NCBI RefSeq assembly: GCF_000022065.1
Contig: NC_011898.1
Location: 3,041,501 to 3,105,500, forward strand
Length of the DNA stretch: 64,000 nucleotides
Reading direction: 5' to 3'
Source of the DNA: Ruminiclostridium cellulolyticum H10
GTDB taxonomy: Bacteria; Bacillota; Clostridia; Acetivibrionales; DSM-1351
Part shown: positions 4,357-37,582 of the stretch, in pieces
Numbering within the stretch: the stretch's first letter is position 1
How the letters are laid out: every line of letters begins with the position of its first letter
Made by a program: the position numbers and the translations under genes
Notes under the pieces: model-generated
What the model was told of the DNA's origin: nothing
What the model saw: the letters and a program-made list of their open reading frames with translations, nothing else
Database searches by the model: none

Positions 4357-5159
4357 TTAGCAATCTATCTCGTTAATAGACATCAAATTAAGCTTTAAAC
4401 ATTTAATTACAGCCTGTGCCGAACATTCCACTTCCAGCTTTTTATAAATACTTTTTTTGTGGTACTTGACGGTATTTATGGTTATGCCTTCTTCTAAAGC
4501 TATGGTTTTATCAGGTACTCCCTTGGCAACCAGCTTAAGAATCTCCAACTGCTTCTTATTTAATATACATTCCTTCTTGTTGGGTAAAACTGAGTTTATC
4601 TCATTAGATTTTAGTTCATTTAGGATTTTGTATGCGGTAAGGTCAGCGATTATTTCAAGTTCAAATCCAACAGGCTCGTTCAGACTACATATAGCCAAAT
4701 AGCCTATTTCTCTTTTTTTTGTTTCCAATGGTACCGAATAAAAATAGAATTCTCGAAGCAAGTCACAATAATGATGTGGCGGTGTGGTATAAACGGGTTC
4801 TTTCGTTTTCATGGACAAAGCTATTGCATTGGTTCCGATTGCTCTTTCGGCAAAAGACATGCCAACCCTTATGCCGATTTTTTCAATTTTCTTGTTCAAT
4901 TCTCTGCAACACTTTTTTTTAAAAGGACCCCTTCGGGGCTGGTTAATAAAAATACTAAACTCTTGTTTGCTGTAAGACGCTCAAGTTCCCTCCATATTTC
5001 ATCAAACAATGATATTATCGGTTTGCTTGCATTTAATGCAGTTTGCAAAGCGTCTTCACTAATATACGTACTCACAGCAGCAGCTGAATTAATCAAACCA
5101 GAATTTATACATCTCCTCCATGACATTAGAATTTCTTCTACTGGTTGTAATCTATTCAT
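4357..5159 (-). pseudogene. GAF-type sensor with LuxR-type HTH, frameshifted
   Basis: Two abutting reading frames make one regulator. The first (5159 to 4896, 87 codons) carries SWRRCINSG and then SLFDEIWRELERL and FLLTSPEGVLL, which is the start of AcoR-like sensory regions. The second (4899 to 4357) continues with GIRVGMSFAERAIGTNAIAL and an EPVYTTPPHHYCD stretch of the same sensory domain, then ends in a LuxR-type helix-turn-helix (LEILKLVAKG, TINTVKYHKKSIYKKL). The frames switch at a run of eight A residues (4913-4920, T on the plus strand). One more A would join them without a stop as GVLLKKKCCRELNKKIEKIG, giving a protein of about 268 residues. No sigma-54 AAA+ domain is present. This may be a true mutation, a slippage-controlled gene or a sequencing error in a homopolymer. 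Its target genes are unknown; the divergent arrangement gives no hint. Confidence 0.75.
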
Positions 5160-5481
5160 ACATATATCCCCCCTATATTCAGTTTTTTGTAGGTAAAGTA
5201 CTCATATTTCAATATATTTATATTACCATACCTATAATATAAAAAGGTGATAATTATTATGTTTACCAGTTTTTGATAAATTAATGAGACAACTTAATTA
5301 CTGACACACAATAGTTTTAAGGTTGGTCATTAATATAAAAAAATTGAAGGAGTTTAAGAAAGAATTGCTAAATAAGCATACTAGCCGTTGTGCTATTTGT
5401 GTACTACTCCTGTGCAGTTTACGACTAATATGCTTATATGTAATTTGTTATCAAGGACTGTATCAATTATGTCCATATTAA
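5160..5481. other. Intergenic region without a gene
   Basis: AT-rich spacer between the frameshifted regulator and the serine hydrolase. The minus-strand ribosome binding site of the regulator (a run of G just before 5159) is at its left edge, and the hairpin described at 5373-5436 lies on its right side. No open frame of more than a few codons was seen. Confidence 0.6.
5373..5436 (-). other. 16-bp hairpin downstream of serine hydrolase gene
   Basis: Arms 5373-5388 and 5421-5436 pair over 16 positions. Read as minus-strand RNA, all 16 pair, with two G-U wobbles (5381/5428 and 5385/5424); read as plus-strand RNA those two are C-A mismatches. The structure is therefore better formed in the transcript of the serine hydrolase gene, whose stop is 46 bases upstream. 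No strong U tract follows, so it may be a weak terminator or a stabilising 3' stem. Confidence 0.45.
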
Positions 5482-6615
5482 CTATAAATCAAGCATTTCA
5501 TAAGAGAGATCCCTGATCTTTGGATGAATATCCGAGTATGCATAACCGCAGCCGCGTACATGCTGTACATAAAAAATCGCAAGACGGTTTTTAACATCAA
5601 TTAGTGCATATGCACCTGCAGCTCCATCCCAGCCAAATTCTCCAAGGGGGCTTTTAACTCCAGATCTTTCCTTTTCTACAAGAGTACGTACACCAAGGCC
5701 GTAACTGTAACCTATTCTGCCGAATTCATCAAAGTCCTTTTTAGATATGTCATTCATCTGATCCTTACGCATCATATCAATAGACTCTCTTGTAAGGACT
5801 CTGTATCCATCTGCACTCACCCCGTCGTTACACATGGCATCTAAAAACAGTATATAATCATCTGCTGTCGATAACAAACCGGCTCCTCCGCTTTCATATT
5901 TACTTGAAAGCTTGTAGCAGTTGGCTAGAGAGATGGGTTTTGATGTCATAGTATCCATATCGTATTCGAACTGTTCTGACATATTTGCCTTTCTGTCTGG
6001 TGTTAATTCAAAACCTGTATTCTTCATTCCCAAGGGCTTAAGAATATGTTCCTCCAGGTATTCTCCGAACTTTTGTCCTGATACCTCTTCTATAACTGCA
6101 CCAAGAACATCATGGCTGAGGCTGTACAGGAAGTGGGTACCGGGTTCAAATTCTAATGGTTCATTTGCTAGTGCCCGTATAACCTGTCTGGTCGTAGCTT
6201 CATATTCGGTGTCCTCAAGTACCTTCAGTATAGATGAAGCCTGAAGGTTGTAGTTTAGCCCGCTTTGCATGGAAAGCAGATGCCTTATTGTAAGTGTATT
6301 TTTAGCAGGCACTACCTCAGAGCCACATTTTACATTCAAATGTTTGTATTCCGGCAGGTAATCAGCTACAGGAGCATCAAGCGAAACTTTTCCCTTTTCA
6401 ACCAGTTGCATAATAGCAGTACATGTTATAAGCTTTGTTGCCGAGAAAAGCCAAAATAAATTTTCGGAAGTCAAGTGCTTTGTTTTTCCTGCGTCTGCAA
6501 AACCGGTAGTATGTCGAAAAACAGGCTTATGTTTGTGAAAAATAACGCAGTCACAGCCGGGTACACCCTTTGATTCTAATGAATCCAGATAATCTTTTAA
6601 AATTGCTTTGTTCAA
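5482..6615 (-). CDS. Beta-lactamase-like serine hydrolase (class C/esterase family)
   Basis: Cytoplasmic-looking serine hydrolase of the penicillin-binding-protein-like fold, 377 residues. The nucleophile motif SATK (about residues 58-61) and HLLSMQSGLNY are typical; the second motif is YSLSHDVLG, where family members often have Y-x-N, and the C-terminal motif is FGWDGAAGA in place of KTG/HTG. Members include esterases, D-aminopeptidases and transpeptidase-like enzymes, so the substrate is open. The open frame begins at a TTG (6633) that is itself inside the GAGGGGG ribosome binding site, so the TTG at 6615 (LNKAILKDYL) is the better start. No signal peptide is seen. It appears to be a single-gene unit, separated from the chemoreceptor gene by a hairpin terminator. 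Confidence 0.88.
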   Translation of the reverse strand: MNKAILKDYLDSLESKGVPGCDCVIFHKHKPVFRHTTGFADAGKTKHLTSENLFWLFSATKLITCTAIMQLVEKGKVSLDAPVADYLPEYKHLNVKCGSEVVPAKNTLTIRHLLSMQSGLNYNLQASSILKVLEDTEYEATTRQVIRALANEPLEFEPGTHFLYSLSHDVLGAVIEEVSGQKFGEYLEEHILKPLGMKNTGFELTPDRKANMSEQFEYDMDTMTSKPISLANCYKLSSKYESGGAGLLSTADDYILFLDAMCNDGVSADGYRVLTRESIDMMRKDQMNDISKKDFDEFGRIGYSYGLGVRTLVEKERSGVKSPLGEFGWDGAAGAYALIDVKNRLAIFYVQHVRGCGYAYSDIHPKIRDLSYEMLDL

Positions 6616-32630: not shown

Positions 32631-32747
32631 TCCTTCCACCCTTTCTTTGGCAAAATATAACTGATTTTAATTATATAAATTATATTTATCAAGGTAGCGG
32701 AATATTACTGATATTCCAGAGTAATTTAAAGCCGGAGAATTTGATAA

Positions 32748-32776
32748 TTGTTTATTATAGCGCAGTGCGCTATAAT
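32748..32776 (+). promoter_or_regulatory. Methyltransferase promoter inside GCGC-bearing palindrome
   Basis: -35 TTGTTT (32748-32753), a 17-base spacer and -10 TATAAT (32771-32776). The spacer and -10 form a perfect 23-bp palindrome (32754-32776): arms ATTATAGCGCA and TGCGCTATAAT around a central G. Each arm has one GCGC (32760-32763 and 32767-32770), the expected target of the HhaI-like methyltransferase encoded 30 bases downstream. The left arm also gives TATAAT on the minus strand. Confidence 0.75.
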
Positions 32777-32806
32777 TATTGAAAGAGAGTTAAATGGAGA
32801 TTACTT

Positions 32807-33823
32807 ATGATTGATGTTAAGGAAAAATCACTTTTGGGTTTTAAGTTTATAGATTTATTTGCTGGATTAGGCGGTTTTAGAATTGCATTGGAATCACTAG
32901 GTGCTAAATGTGTTTATTCAAATGAGTGGGATAAACCAGTACGAAAAGTTTATACAGATAATTTTGGAGATATTCCCGAGGGAGACATTACACAAATAAA
33001 TGAAAATTCTATTCCTGAACATGATATTTTATGTGCTGGATTCCCATGCCAAGCTTTCTCAATTAGCGGCAAACAACGTGGATTTGAAGACAGTAGAGGT
33101 ACGTTATTCTTCGATGTAGCCAGAATTGTAAAAGCTAAGAAGCCAAAGATTGTTTTTATGGAAAATGTTAAGAATTTTGTTTCTCATGACGATGGTAAAA
33201 CTCTGTGTATTGTGAAAGCCACAATGGAAGAATTGGGATATAAATTTAATCAAAAAGTTCTGAATGCTGTTAATTATGGAATTCCTCAAAACAGAGAACG
33301 TATATATATGGTTTGTTTTAGAAATGACCTAAACATTGAAAATTTTAATTTTCCAAAACCATTCCCATTAAAAAGGTACGTTGAAGATTTTTTATTAGAA
33401 GATGAAAGTCAGGTAGAGCATTTATACATACAGCGTCCAGATACTTATTTTAATGGAGTAGAAGATAATAAATACAGTAACAAACCAATTAGATTAGGTA
33501 TAGTAAACAAAGGCGGCCAGGGTGAACGAATATACAGTACAAAAGGGATAGCCATTACACTTTCGGCTTACGGAGGAGGAATATTTGCCAAGACTGGCGG
33601 TTACTTAATAAATGGAAAAACCAGAAAACTACATCCGAAAGAATGTGCAAGATTAATGGGATTTCCTGATAGCTATAAAATCTCTAATAGTGCAAACCAA
33701 GCCTATAAACAGTTTGGCAATTCTGTAGTTGTTGATGTTCTGCAACTGATTGGTCAAGAAATAGGTAGTGCAATGGAGGAGGCAATAAATGAACGAGATA
33801 GAATTCCGACAATGGCTATCTAA
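32807..33823 (+). CDS. C5-cytosine DNA methyltransferase, M.HhaI-like (predicted GCGC)
   Basis: 338 residues with all motifs in order: FIDLFAGLGGF (I, SAM binding), GFPCQAFSISGKQRGFEDSR (IV; the nucleophile is Cys81, the same number as in M.HhaI), FMENV (VI), IPQNRERIYM (VIII), a target-recognition region with GGQGERIYSTKGIAITLSA and GGGIFAKTGGYL, and QAYKQFGNSVV (X). The recognition region is close to that of M.HhaI as I recall it, so methylation of the inner cytosine of GCGC is predicted. GGAGATTACTT precedes the ATG. Lower G+C than neighbours suggests transfer. Its endonuclease partner is broken (34078-37472), leaving it as an orphan methylase. Confidence 0.93.
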   Translation: MIDVKEKSLLGFKFIDLFAGLGGFRIALESLGAKCVYSNEWDKPVRKVYTDNFGDIPEGDITQINENSIPEHDILCAGFPCQAFSISGKQRGFEDSRGTLFFDVARIVKAKKPKIVFMENVKNFVSHDDGKTLCIVKATMEELGYKFNQKVLNAVNYGIPQNRERIYMVCFRNDLNIENFNFPKPFPLKRYVEDFLLEDESQVEHLYIQRPDTYFNGVEDNKYSNKPIRLGIVNKGGQGERIYSTKGIAITLSAYGGGIFAKTGGYLINGKTRKLHPKECARLMGFPDSYKISNSANQAYKQFGNSVVVDVLQLIGQEIGSAMEEAINERDRIPTMAI

Positions 33824-34097
33824 TAATAATGTATCTAAGAAGATGCAAAGTGATCTTGTATCAAGGTTGAAACGCTTTGAAAAAGCAATAAAAAACTGCG
33901 ATATTGATGAACAATATCGCAGTGACAAATATAAATATTTATTTTCTCTTTTTGAAAATAAAGGCATAAATAGAAATATGAGTAAGTTTAAAGGCGTAGA
34001 TTTACCTATTGGAAAATACCAATTTAGTATATTTAAGTATGCATTAAATAAGTATAGGCAGTTCCTGGAGGATGCGGCTACTTCAACGTCCGAATAA
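33789..34097 (+). CDS. Small unknown protein linked to HhaI-like system
   Basis: 102 residues, not recognised. The start overlaps the methyltransferase gene by 35 bases and has a strong GGAGGAGG 7 bases upstream, so it is translationally coupled and very likely real. Predicted mostly helical: FRQWLSNNNVSKKMQSDLVSRLKRFEKAI recalls SAM-like DNA-binding N-terminal domains of recombinases, then a basic FENKGINRNMSKFKGV and a helical end. Its last 20 bases overlap the antisense end of the broken endonuclease gene. Perhaps a DNA-binding accessory or control protein of the restriction-modification system; this is conjecture. Confidence 0.65.
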   Translation: MNEIEFRQWLSNNNVSKKMQSDLVSRLKRFEKAIKNCDIDEQYRSDKYKYLFSLFENKGINRNMSKFKGVDLPIGKYQFSIFKYALNKYRQFLEDAATSTSE

Positions 34098-34194
34098 AGT
34101 CATCCGATTCTACTCCATTCATTGTAGTTTTTAGATTAATTGAAAAAATTACATTTGCGTTAAACGTGTTAGATAGCTTTCTTATTTCGTATTC
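34078..34194 (-). pseudogene. HhaI-like restriction endonuclease, C-terminal piece
   Basis: Too short to stand out alone: 38 codons on the minus strand from the IS edge to a TAG at 34078, reading EYEIRKLSNTFNANVIFS and ending DDFIRTLK. The segment KLSNTFNANVIFSI matches my memory of the R.HhaI C-terminus. It begins exactly at the target duplication GAATACG, where it joins in frame to the end of the piece at 35488-35837. Confidence 0.85.
34188..34194. repeat. Target-site duplication CGTATTC, partner at 35831-35837
   Basis: The 7 bases CGTATTC touch the outer end of IS copy 1. Their reverse complement GAATACG touches the inner end of IS copy 2, not the inner end of copy 1. The duplication made by one insertion is therefore split between two elements, showing an inversion after insertion. 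Confidence 0.85.
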
Positions 34195-35487
34195 TGCTAG
34201 AGAATTGACTTCACTTGACAGTATCTGAATAATGTTGGGCAATATCTCCTCTGGACAATAATTAAATTGTAGGAGGAGATTTCAATTATGACAGCACAAG
34301 ATCGTATAGTTAAAAACAAAATGAGCCTGATTGAGTTGGCCGAATATCTTCAAAACGTAAGTGAAGCATGTAAAATTCATGGAGTCAGCAGACAGCACTT
34401 CTATGATATTAAGAAAGCTTACGAGGAAAATGGTCTGGAAGGATTAAAGGACAAGACCAGAAGAAAGCCTTGTATGAAAAACAGGGTTGCTCCAGAAACT
34501 GAGGAAGCCGTATTAAGAATAGCATATGAAAAGCCGGCATACGGGCAGCTCAGGGCAAGTAACGAACTGAGAAAACAAGGAGTTCTTGTATCAGCCGGAG
34601 GGGTAAGATCAATCTGGCAGAGATATAATATAGAAACCTTTGACAAGAGACTCAAAAAGCTTGAAGAAAAGGCTGCCAAGGAAGGCATACTTTACACTGA
34701 AGATCAGCTCGCTGCTCTGGAAAAGGCACAGCAGGAAAAGAATATATCCATAGACGAGATAGATACCCAGCACCCGGGATATTTGCTGGCACAGGACACT
34801 TTCTATGTGGGCTATATCAAAGGTGTTGGACGTATATATCAGCAAACTGCCATAGATACTTATTCGGCAGTGGGATTCGCAAAATTATATACAGCCAAGG
34901 TACCAGTAACAGCAGCAGATATATTAAATGACAGAGTCTTACCGTTCTTTGAGAATCATATGATACCGATAATGAGAGTACTCACAGACAGAGGAACGGA
35001 GTACTGTGGAGCACCTGAGAAACACTTGTATGAGTTATTTCTGCAGATGAACGACATTGAGCACACAATGACAAAGGCTAAAAGCCCTCAAACAAACGGT
35101 ATATGCGAGCGTTTTAACCAAACAATTCTGAATGAATTTTATAAACCCGCATTCCGAAGGACAATGTATAAATCAGTTGAACAAATGCAGGAGGATTTGG
35201 ATTTTTATATGCTGGAATACAACGAAGAGCGAACACATCAGGGGAAAAGGTGTAAAGGCAAGACGCCGATGCAGACATTTCTTGACAGCTTGCCTCTTGC
35301 CCGAGAGAAGCTCCTGAATGATCCTGCGAGTTAATTTGTAGGGTCTAGCCCGCCCGGCGATGAGGGCAAAAAAGATATCAGACCAGGCGCCGGTTTGACA
35401 TAGAAAGGCACCTCCATATTGGAAGTGCCGAATAAACAAAACTTAATATTTCCCAGAGGAGTGTCAACCCAAGTACCGTTCAGGACA
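34195..35487 (+). mobile_element. IS481-type insertion sequence, copy 1
   Basis: 1293 bp, starting TGCTAGAGAATTGACTTCAC and ending ACCGTTCAGGACA. The ends read inward share ACTT-N3-TTGACA-N-T at the same offset (14 bases in), forming imperfect terminal inverted repeats, and CTCCTCTGG also occurs near both ends. It holds one transposase gene and, after it, a hairpin GGCACCTCC/GGAAGTGCC. It is the same length as copy 2 (35838-37130), in opposite orientation, and the encoded transposases are identical. The boundaries are fixed by where the two copies diverge. Confidence 0.92.
34288..35334 (+). CDS. IS481-family transposase (copy 1)
   Basis: 348 residues. An N-terminal helix-turn-helix (VSEACKIHGVSRQHFYDIKK, about 28-47) and a second DNA-binding region precede an RNase H-like DDE integrase core: LAQDTFYVG (first Asp), VLTDRGTEYCG (second Asp) and SPQTNGICERFNQT (Glu). 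The single full-length frame without a programmed frameshift supports IS481 over IS3. AGGAGGAG lies upstream of the ATG inside the element. Identical in sequence to the transposase at 35991-37037, so the copies are recent. Confidence 0.95.
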   Translation: MTAQDRIVKNKMSLIELAEYLQNVSEACKIHGVSRQHFYDIKKAYEENGLEGLKDKTRRKPCMKNRVAPETEEAVLRIAYEKPAYGQLRASNELRKQGVLVSAGGVRSIWQRYNIETFDKRLKKLEEKAAKEGILYTEDQLAALEKAQQEKNISIDEIDTQHPGYLLAQDTFYVGYIKGVGRIYQQTAIDTYSAVGFAKLYTAKVPVTAADILNDRVLPFFENHMIPIMRVLTDRGTEYCGAPEKHLYELFLQMNDIEHTMTKAKSPQTNGICERFNQTILNEFYKPAFRRTMYKSVEQMQEDLDFYMLEYNEERTHQGKRCKGKTPMQTFLDSLPLAREKLLNDPAS

Positions 35488-35837
35488 AATTATGGATAAG
35501 GGTTCTGAAATCTTTTCAAATTGGATTATTGAAACCTATGGAAACAAAGGTACCCGCTATTTCATAACAAATGACTTTACTATTTTGCCAATTGAAAGAT
35601 TTAGTGAGTACTTCAATGTAAGTGCTAAATATAGAGTAAAACGCAGTGGATCAAGTAATGTTGGAAAAAGTAATATCTCAAATGTTCTAAGTTATATAAA
35701 ATCACATGATTATGTTGTCCAAACTACAAGAGAAAATGGTGGCAAACTTTTTGTTGAATCCTATGAACCACTTCATAAACGACGTTTTTTGTTACATGGA
35801 CATGAGTATATGTTCTCTCTTCGTGATTCTGAATACG
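35488..35837 (+). pseudogene. HhaI-like restriction endonuclease, middle piece, inverted
   Basis: 350 bp between the two IS copies. On the plus strand it reads DKGSEIFSNWIIETYG, then DFTILPIERFSEYFNVSAKYR, VKRSGSSNVGKSN and ends LRDSEY; a free ATG at 35492 gives a 117-codon frame that runs into IS copy 2. It lies opposite to the other two pieces of the gene. Its left edge AATTATG matches the edge of the N-terminal piece and its right edge GAATACG matches the edge of the C-terminal piece. Flipping it restores one frame: 114 codons from the first piece, 112 here and 38 from the last. It is therefore not an independent gene. Confidence 0.88.
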
Positions 35838-37130
35838 TGTCCTGAACGGTACTTGGGTTGACACTCCTCTGGGAAATATTAAGTTTTGTTTATTCGGCAC
35901 TTCCAATATGGAGGTGCCTTTCTATGTCAAACCGGCGCCTGGTCTGATATCTTTTTTGCCCTCATCGCCGGGCGGGCTAGACCCTACAAATTAACTCGCA
36001 GGATCATTCAGGAGCTTCTCTCGGGCAAGAGGCAAGCTGTCAAGAAATGTCTGCATCGGCGTCTTGCCTTTACACCTTTTCCCCTGATGTGTTCGCTCTT
36101 CGTTGTATTCCAGCATATAAAAATCCAAATCCTCCTGCATTTGTTCAACTGATTTATACATTGTCCTTCGGAATGCGGGTTTATAAAATTCATTCAGAAT
36201 TGTTTGGTTAAAACGCTCGCATATACCGTTTGTTTGAGGGCTTTTAGCCTTTGTCATTGTGTGCTCAATGTCGTTCATCTGCAGAAATAACTCATACAAG
36301 TGTTTCTCAGGTGCTCCACAGTACTCCGTTCCTCTGTCTGTGAGTACTCTCATTATCGGTATCATATGATTCTCAAAGAACGGTAAGACTCTGTCATTTA
36401 ATATATCTGCTGCTGTTACTGGTACCTTGGCTGTATATAATTTTGCGAATCCCACTGCCGAATAAGTATCTATGGCAGTTTGCTGATATATACGTCCAAC
36501 ACCTTTGATATAGCCCACATAGAAAGTGTCCTGTGCCAGCAAATATCCCGGGTGCTGGGTATCTATCTCGTCTATGGATATATTCTTTTCCTGCTGTGCC
36601 TTTTCCAGAGCAGCGAGCTGATCTTCAGTGTAAAGTATGCCTTCCTTGGCAGCCTTTTCTTCAAGCTTTTTGAGTCTCTTGTCAAAGGTTTCTATATTAT
36701 ATCTCTGCCAGATTGATCTTACCCCTCCGGCTGATACAAGAACTCCTTGTTTTCTCAGTTCGTTACTTGCCCTGAGCTGCCCGTATGCCGGCTTTTCATA
36801 TGCTATTCTTAATACGGCTTCCTCAGTTTCTGGAGCAACCCTGTTTTTCATACAAGGCTTTCTTCTGGTCTTGTCCTTTAATCCTTCCAGACCATTTTCC
36901 TCGTAAGCTTTCTTAATATCATAGAAGTGCTGTCTGCTGACTCCATGAATTTTACATGCTTCACTTACGTTTTGAAGATATTCGGCCAACTCAATCAGGC
37001 TCATTTTGTTTTTAACTATACGATCTTGTGCTGTCATAATTGAAATCTCCTCCTACAATTTAATTATTGTCCAGAGGAGATATTGCCCAACATTATTCAG
37101 ATACTGTCAAGTGAAGTCAATTCTCTAGCA
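35838..37130 (-). mobile_element. IS481-type insertion sequence, copy 2 (inverted)
   Basis: 1293 bp, reverse complement of copy 1 with the same ends and the same transposase placement (coding start 93 bases from the outer end). The outer flank 37131-37137 (CATAATT) pairs as a duplication with 35488-35494 at the inner end of copy 1. Together with copy 1 it encloses a 350-bp piece of the endonuclease gene, resembling a small composite transposon but produced by two separate insertions in one gene. Confidence 0.92.
35991..37037 (-). CDS. IS481-family transposase (copy 2)
   Basis: 348 residues, identical to the copy at 34288-35334, with the same helix-turn-helix and DDE core (QDTFYVG, LTDRGTEYCG, NGICERFNQT). 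Intact, so either copy could still drive transposition of both elements. It is read towards the interior of the pair; its own AGGAGGAG site lies within the element. Confidence 0.95.
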   Translation of the reverse strand: MTAQDRIVKNKMSLIELAEYLQNVSEACKIHGVSRQHFYDIKKAYEENGLEGLKDKTRRKPCMKNRVAPETEEAVLRIAYEKPAYGQLRASNELRKQGVLVSAGGVRSIWQRYNIETFDKRLKKLEEKAAKEGILYTEDQLAALEKAQQEKNISIDEIDTQHPGYLLAQDTFYVGYIKGVGRIYQQTAIDTYSAVGFAKLYTAKVPVTAADILNDRVLPFFENHMIPIMRVLTDRGTEYCGAPEKHLYELFLQMNDIEHTMTKAKSPQTNGICERFNQTILNEFYKPAFRRTMYKSVEQMQEDLDFYMLEYNEERTHQGKRCKGKTPMQTFLDSLPLAREKLLNDPAS

Positions 37131-37137
37131 CATAATT
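37131..37137. repeat. Target-site duplication AATTATG, partner at 35488-35494
   Basis: CATAATT on the plus strand (AATTATG on the minus) touches the outer end of IS copy 2; AATTATG touches the inner end of IS copy 1. As with the other pair, the duplication is split across the two elements. Confidence 0.85.
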
Positions 37138-37472
37138 ATATCTTTTCCTGCCGTTCCGGCCTCTTTAAACTCATCAAATTGAGTATTCATATGTCCCATG
37201 ATTTGTTTTGCATAATTATTGATTCTAGTGGTATTCTGATGGCTATAAATGAACGTGCTAGATGATATATCCGGCAGTAATACAAACTGTCCACATTGTG
37301 CGGGAGAGTTTTTTGCATCGATGTAAAAAATATTTCCAAATTTTGTTGTAACTTTAATATCCGGGACGGTAGAGTCAGAGCCACCTTCAAGTTTAAATCT
37401 TGCGTATTCACCGAATTTTTTATTTAGGTATTCGGTACAGTCAATCTCGAAATCTTCCCATCTTGATGACAT
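37131..37472 (-). pseudogene. HhaI-like restriction endonuclease, N-terminal piece
   Basis: The 114-codon start of a type II restriction enzyme: WEDFEIDCTEYLNKKFGEY, then the PD-(D/E)xK catalytic core SDSTVPDIKV...FYIDAKNSPAQCGQFVL (Asp of VPDI, then Asp-Ala-Lys). The present frame runs one codon into IS copy 2 and stops (KDIIMC). AGGAGGT precedes the ATG. In the rebuilt gene, KDIIM continues directly into DKGSEIF of the middle piece. The rebuilt 264-residue protein resembles R.HhaI (GCGC) as I recall it, and the intact M.HhaI-like gene next door agrees. The catalytic half could be expressed but should not fold. Confidence 0.88.
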
Positions 37473-37543
37473 AGTTATACCTCCTATTATTCAAGAAGAC
37501 GATTAATAATCCAATCACCTAATCTTTTAAACATTAAGAGTCT

Positions 37544-37582
37544 AAAAAAAGATATCCTGATAATTTGCCGGATATCTTTTTT
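37544..37582 (-). terminator. Intrinsic terminator after methylglyoxal synthase-like gene
   Basis: AAAAAAAGATATCC and GGATATCTTTTTT form a stem with a 13-base loop; on the minus strand it lies 24 bases after the stop at 37606 and ends the large shape/division cluster. Confidence 0.85.

Follow-up and report, generated by a model that had tools for sequence, protein, structure and literature searches.

We analysed a window of 64,000 bases from Ruminiclostridium cellulolyticum H10 (positions 3,041,501–3,105,500 in a genome of 4,068,724 bases on one contig), which carries a HhaI-type restriction-modification cassette whose endonuclease gene (R) is broken by two insertion sequence (IS) copies while its methylase gene (M) is intact. 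Read directly from the DNA are the identity of the gene, its breakage, the crossing of the target duplications, an empty site in sibling species and a footprint at GCGC. A sequence-only reading of the same stretch had described the broken gene; the paired sites in the M promoter, a conserved small gene (S), the empty sibling site and the genome-wide footprint are added here. The broken enzyme itself belongs to a known kind, and it is the footprint and the unit formed by S and the candidate operator that raise the case above a mere example of one. The features are as follows (window positions; bp, base pairs; E, expectation value).

32714–37544, no strand: stretch missing from four sibling species, comprising the cassette and the later IS copies (best alignments; L044–L047 align to 32689–32713 and resume at 37545)
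32748–32776, plus: predicted M promoter with a weak −35 TTGTTT, a 17-bp spacer and a −10 TATAAT (from sequence, spacing compared with related loci)
32756–32774, no strand: dyad TATAGCGC-AGT-GCGCTATA, two HhaI (GCGC) sites 3 bp apart and abutting the −10 box; candidate operator
32807–33823, plus: M, HhaI-type cytosine-5 methyltransferase, intact, 338 amino acids (M.HhaI match, PF00145, TIGR00675)
33789–34097, plus: S, small conserved open reading frame of 102 amino acids overlapping the end of M; all-helical model
34078–34194, minus: R piece 3, C-terminus, stop at 34078–34080 (R.HhaI 217–240, E 9.7e-5)
34188–34194, no strand: CGTATTC, outer flank of IS copy 1, paired with the inner flank of copy 2
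34195–35487, plus: IS copy 1, IS481 family, transposase at 34288–35334, 348 amino acids (NF033577)
35488–35837, plus: R piece 2, the middle, in the opposite orientation to pieces 1 and 3, starting AATTATG and ending GAATACG (R.HhaI 110–171, E 2.5e-13)
35838–37130, minus: IS copy 2, an identical inverted copy, transposase at 35991–37037
37131–37137, no strand: CATAATT, outer flank of IS copy 2, paired with AATTATG on the inner side of copy 1
37131–37472, minus: R piece 1, N-terminus with the PD...DAK core (R.HhaI 2–106, E 9.5e-22; PADLOC REase_II, E 1.1e-24)

Searched separately, the three R pieces matched one PDB chain, R.HhaI, consecutively (residues 2–106, 110–171 and 217–240), and a single PADLOC model for type II endonucleases likewise matched all three in their proper order. 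The likeness to R.HhaI that had been proposed thus holds for each piece on its own. The rebuilt length is 342 + 350 + 117 nucleotides minus 14, that is 795 nucleotides or 264 codons and a stop, as previously calculated, and intact relatives in Clostridium magnum (L064) and C. liquoris (L065) have the same length of 264 amino acids. The pieces tile these two genes and overlap by exactly two codons at each joint, Ile-Met and Glu-Tyr, which lie inside the duplications; this is the overlap expected when each duplication is counted once. D...(D/E)xK is the name of the catalytic core motif, and the core that had been pointed out in the N-terminal piece is present as PDI...DAK, with the D and the K among the columns conserved in at least 95% of relatives. 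The core reads DAK in L064 and L065 and EAK in L067, L068 and L145. Piece 3 (34194–34078) shares 20 bp with the end of the convergent S (33789–34097).

For locus comparison, species genomes were scanned with the methylase, which gave 249 confirmed relatives, and the best 80 were kept. All three R pieces lie on one strand and in order in 65 of these 80 loci. In 64 of them R follows M in convergent orientation, and in the remaining one (L084) it lies upstream. No R piece was found within the fetched flanks of 14 loci (two with less than 1 kb on one side), and L115 is interrupted by a contig end. The middle is collinear in all 65 loci with three pieces, and among these we found no relative carrying it in its present orientation without IS copies, the arrangement named beforehand as one that would speak against the reconstruction. 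None of the pieces had a Pfam or NCBIfam match at E ≤ 0.01, as would be expected if this were no endonuclease gene but three unrelated open reading frame fragments abutting IS copies. The ordered matches to R.HhaI and the PADLOC model and the collinearity in 65 of 80 loci rule that explanation out for practical purposes and leave it extremely improbable. From sequence, then, we consider the gene confirmed as an HhaI-type endonuclease; in place of one uninterrupted frame there are three pieces, an inverted middle and two IS copies, i.e., a broken member of the family.

The pieces deviate at 0 of the 38 columns that are conserved at ≥95% among 65 unique intact relatives, so R was sound up to its interruption, and the break looks recent. 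An open frame of 230–310 amino acids was present in 71 of 72 loci with piece 1 (genome and viral loci together, some viral ones repeating genome loci). The exception, L113 (about 4968–5768), has an early in-frame stop in an HhaI-type endonuclease gene beside an open methylase gene. It is perhaps a second nuclease loss with the methylase kept, although it comes from a metagenome assembly and could be an error.

The two IS copies are each 1,293 bp long, lie in opposite orientation 350 bp apart and are 100% complementary. Their 348-amino-acid transposase passes the IS481 transposase model NF033577 (287.7 bits versus a cut-off of 224, E 1e-85). CGTATTC precedes copy 1 (34188–34194) and its reverse complement GAATACG precedes copy 2 (35831–35837), while AATTATG follows copy 1 (35488–35494) and its reverse complement CATAATT follows copy 2 (37131–37137). 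Read from the sequence, the outer end of each copy therefore pairs with the inner end of the other, and the duplications are crossed just as had been described. Simple composite transposition, which had already been set aside, is ruled out by the difference between the two outer duplications (CGTATTC and CATAATT); in addition, relatives carry the middle as part of the gene.

A whole-genome census of the element recovered 26 full copies, 25 of them identical and one (L026) differing by a single base. A perfect 7-bp duplication of its own flanks 22 of the 26, and two (L003 and L020) have none. Crossed duplications were found only in the pair described here, whose two copies match solely each other. 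The full copies without matching flanks, L003 and L020, are perhaps products of deletion between copies. Close inverted copies are also seen in L021/L022, at a distance of 986 bp, and in L001/L002, at 2,268 bp; both pairs retain their own duplications, and neighbouring independent insertions therefore do occur. The copies are clustered, with 11 neighbour distances below 20 kb versus a mean of 3.0 at random (0 of 5,000 draws were as high). Seven of 10 genus siblings match the element somewhere, mostly over short or partial stretches, and one of them, G019, carries it in full length with 94% identity. The element has spread recently, and its expansion is confined to this lineage.

We infer the order and mechanism of the inversion from these ends and from the census. 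The two copies would have landed in R in opposite orientation, each with its 7-bp duplication, during the expansion of the element, and homologous recombination between the identical inverted copies would then have flipped the 350-bp middle and swapped the inner duplications. This is the likely route, though not a unique one. The census favours it, since neighbouring independent insertions were seen and other crossed pairs were not. Opposite copies with exchanged 7-bp duplications are presented as a signature of an inversion by ectopic recombination in work on the Galileo-mediated inversion 2z3 of Drosophila buzzatii (PMC2775673). The arrangement described there is likewise one of opposite copies, but concerns a large chromosomal inversion with copies that are also chimaeric, whereas here 350 bp inside one bacterial gene are flipped between identical copies. 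The same exchanged duplications are found here, and they are also expected from other routes.

Several points weigh against the recombination route. The structure of the ends is alike for recombination, for an inverting transposition in cis and for a mis-oriented 350-bp segment, the identity of the two copies makes chimaerism unscorable, and uniformly random insertion seldom strikes one 0.8-kb gene twice, a point that the clustering of the copies softens. The earlier proposal of two insertions followed by recombination thus stands as the favoured account and not as the sole one. One insertion in R followed by an inverting intramolecular transposition (replicative or through an IS-dimer junction) to a target about 343 bp away needs a single independent hit in the gene and, worked out by hand, yields a second copy in opposite orientation with exactly the same exchanged ends. 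Inversion through intramolecular replicative transposition is proposed for IS26 in one paper (PMC8672901), and active end-to-end junctions are described as yielding inversions in the copy-out-paste-in element IS30 in another (PMC9333248). On the other side, the 26 copies include just this one crossed pair, two further close inverted pairs are simple insertions without crossing, and the literature searched gave no evidence of such inversion by IS481 elements, and we hold this route to be improbable. Two simple insertions with no fixed inversion at all, the middle being mis-oriented in the assembly between identical inverted repeats or present in both orientations in the culture, would give each copy its own duplication once the middle is flipped, like 22 of the 24 other copies, and without long inserts the orientation of a segment between identical 1.3-kb inverted repeats is difficult to establish. 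That the genome is represented by a single contig speaks against mis-orientation, and we give this explanation a similarly low chance. R is dead under all three routes.

Turning to the origin of the cassette, mgsA adjoins the M23 peptidase gene in four sibling species (G019–G022; loci L044–L047), where about 32714–37544 is missing, i.e., the site is empty. None of the other 10 genomes in the genus matched R piece 1, and the only match to M at E ≤ 1e-40 among them (G017) is 43% identical. The nearest relatives of M among the best 80 of 249 are 87–88% identical and include those of C. magnum, C. liquoris and Tissierella pigra. Gain in this lineage is simpler than many losses in siblings, and the cassette, with its paired-GCGC promoter, M, S and convergent R, would presumably have entered between mgsA and the M23 peptidase gene. 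Neither R piece 1 nor S matched a plasmid or phage record that might represent a donor (72,556 plasmid and 50,697 phage records, E ≤ 0.001). On a 52.6-kb contig that IMG/VR classes as viral there is a cassette (L144, L147 and L203) whose M is 88% identical and thus no more distant than that of C. magnum.

To quantify the occurrence of GCGC, this genome was sampled (L239–L258 and L316–L335), and counts in 20 of its stretches (400 kb) and in stretches of its siblings were compared with a Markov expectation. GCGC occurs here 44 times per 400 kb (observed/expected 0.20), versus 190 (0.78) and 204 (0.82) per 400 kb and 115 per 340 kb (0.62) in three siblings that lack the cassette, and is thus 3- to 5-fold rarer; the whole 64-kb window holds 7. 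None of the 10 other palindromes listed singles out this genome likewise, although CGCG varies among the four genomes (0.31–0.74). In an alignment with one sibling (G022; 306,525 columns, 86.5% identity), 91 GCGC sites were present only in the sibling, 9 only here and 8 in both (binomial p 3e-18), whereas twelve other palindromes in the same alignment gave ratios of 0.77 to 1.32.

M.HhaI methylates the inner cytosine of GCGC. Of the 91 sibling-only sites, 43 read GTGC or GCAC here, as after a change of the inner cytosine, and the outer one had changed in 5 (p 1.4e-8); in the reverse direction, among the sites found only here, the counts were 2 inner and 1 outer. The 43 inner versus 5 outer transitions indicate that M would have methylated the inner cytosine of GCGC in the past, and M is presumably still active. 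The remaining differences, 48 versus 7 (some of the 48 being multiple changes), lean the same way, which suggests that avoidance of cutting acted alongside deamination. Because GCGC is depleted with an inner-cytosine bias, the system was probably active here for long, both M and R, before the recent loss. The cassette would have cut and methylated GCGC for long enough to purge most of the genomic sites; for R, recognition of GCGC is suggested indirectly, by this loss and by the similarity of M to M.HhaI. The description of the locus as a fossil record of restriction loss with the methylase kept is stronger than first claimed, because the genome carries this mutation scar.

Some observations temper the footprint: the aligned comparison uses one sibling (three siblings agree in level), restriction avoidance and deamination are only partly separated, and two larger cytosine methylases were left out. 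A second full-length cytosine methylase (L356; region G000:C1:3417563) was considered as the cause of the GCGC loss and rejected, as its neighbour is a convergent MspI-type endonuclease (PF09208, E 1.2e-123; both frames open), which makes CCGG the likely target. In the alignment, CCGG itself is mildly biased (463 versus 352; inner transitions 90 versus 52).

The methylase itself aligns nearly end to end with M.HhaI (query 1–323 with residues 1–322, E 2.7e-162) and contains PF00145. On this evidence the neighbour is to be read as an intact M.HhaI-type methyltransferase, in agreement with the earlier statement that the methylase stayed after the endonuclease was lost. In its predicted promoter the second GCGC of the dyad TATAGCGC-AGT-GCGCTATA lies flush with the −10 box, and the 4.07-Mb genome contains GCGCNNNGCGC (GCGC-N3-GCGC) just twice, once in this promoter. 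Related cassettes share the arrangement: a GCGC pair lies within 150 bp before M in 34 of the 80 loci (0.17 expected from the rest of the loci), and TATAAT directly follows the pair in 27 of the 34. A −35-like hexamer with at least 4 matches is found 15–19 bp before the −10 box in 32 of 35 sequences (0.91; shuffled control 0.27). Against the promoter assignment in the window stands its own weak −35, since TTGTTT has 3 of 6 consensus bases and is one of the three exceptions among the 35. L133 and L139 are the other two; there, by our reading, the GCGC pair is found downstream of a distinct promoter-like sequence and does not sit within the spacer, a position that would suit a repressor site. 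Used on its own, the 17-base promoter motif was rejected as a specific marker: among 71 viral stretches, 5 contain an M.HhaI-like gene, which in each case immediately follows the motif.

S was detected in 42 of the 80 loci, always together with all three R pieces. In the 24 loci with R and without S, the gap between M and R is at most 99 bp in 21 and R lies elsewhere in L084; the gaps of L140 and L142 gave no match to S. The GCGC pair was present in 34 of the 42 loci with S, in 0 of the 24 with R alone and in 0 of the 14 with neither, i.e., in 0 of the 38 without S. After loci were made non-redundant by promoter, the counts were 24 of 31, 0 of 20 and 0 of 11, respectively (Fisher test of S versus pair across the 62 loci, 5e-11, a statistic that ignores kinship). 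On the M tree we counted 14 changes in S and 16 in the operator. With supported branches there are 6 independent pairs, on average 3.7 changing the same way, 0 in opposite ways and 2.3 without a difference (median p 0.125, not significant). Eight of the 42 loci with S have no exact pair, two of them with a damaged S (shortened in L085, no start found in L067). The other six speak against a strict linkage, as S is apparently whole while only one GCGC (L072, L087, L103 and L108) or none (L122 and L131) is present.

The predicted model of S is confident and all-helical (predicted local distance difference test 92, predicted template modelling score 0.84). The S of the window has no Pfam match, and weak ones are scattered among the other 34 of 35 members (best E 0.0062, not a helix-turn-helix); one of the 35 reaches a winged helix-turn-helix Pfam model, at E 0.1 only. 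No NCBIfam match was found at E ≤ 0.01, and no fold in a Foldseek search of the PDB at E ≤ 0.001. Assignment to a known family was rejected (weak PADLOC matches to LeoB, 0.0017, and SspE, 0.002), as was a proteasome ATPase subunit, the best PDB profile match (E 0.0014), which we judged spurious. S is also not quite exclusive to HhaI cassettes, since 2 of 398 genomes matched, its own included. The other match, a distant relative (L231:1447–1803), comes from a second genome of the same phylum; its surroundings resemble a prophage, and the stretch fetched around it contains no HhaI-type methylase. The open-licence literature searched contained no description of S or of the paired-GCGC promoter.

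In our reading, S and the paired sites would form a control unit for M, regulation acting through the paired sites, with S as a candidate new controller. Small genes that act at a dyad operator are known from C-protein restriction-modification systems, and S is likewise a small cassette gene that possibly acts at a dyad operator. It differs in lying downstream of M and in having no significant Pfam helix-turn-helix match and no fold at E ≤ 0.001, and is thus not a small helix-turn-helix controller of that type by these searches. A passage in PMC12707154 describes self-methylated methylase promoters in CfrBI, LlaDII and AhdI, a control that it presents as apparently rarely used. As in those systems, the recognition sites of M lie within its own predicted promoter, as would be expected under control of the LlaDII type; here they take the form of GCGC-N3-GCGC at the −10 box, in cassettes of several phyla, and among the loci examined only together with S. 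Compared with R.HhaI and M.HhaI (PDB 6uke and 10mh), M aligns nearly end to end, the R pieces are consecutive and the footprint fits GCGC, whereas R is broken and the cassette adds S, a convergent R and the paired-GCGC promoter (a comparison that leaves aside the source organism of HhaI itself, Haemophilus haemolyticus). We tentatively propose, at somewhat less than even confidence, that HhaI-type cassettes of several phyla share an undescribed controller, S, with a GCGC-N3-GCGC operator, that methylation of its own operator sets the methylase level, and that the circuit survives the loss of the nuclease here.

R is dead in either orientation of the middle, while M, its promoter sites and S persist intact, leaving a solitary GCGC methylase that is probably self-regulated. 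Nuclease loss with methylase survival is usually visible only as an end state. At this locus the stages can be read: acquisition from the empty site, long activity from the GCGC scar, which includes mutations at the base that M methylates, and a recent break with no decay to be seen. The co-occurrence of S with the paired-target promoter in related cassettes raises a testable question about methylase control, and if S is the controller, the locus would offer a natural nuclease-free version for studying the control loop. For users of this host, the prediction is GCGC-methylated DNA and no GCGC restriction.

The IS element may correspond to ISCce1 of Clostridium cellulolyticum, which Maamar et al. 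reportedly described in 2003 in the Journal of Bacteriology (185:714), with 1,292 bp and 8-bp repeats. ISCce1 likewise reportedly encodes a 348-amino-acid IS481-like transposase, is about 1.29 kb long and is present in 20 or more copies, and we presume the likeness from size, open reading frame length and copy number. The element here differs from those reported values in having 1,293 bp and 7-bp repeats (22 of 26 copies).

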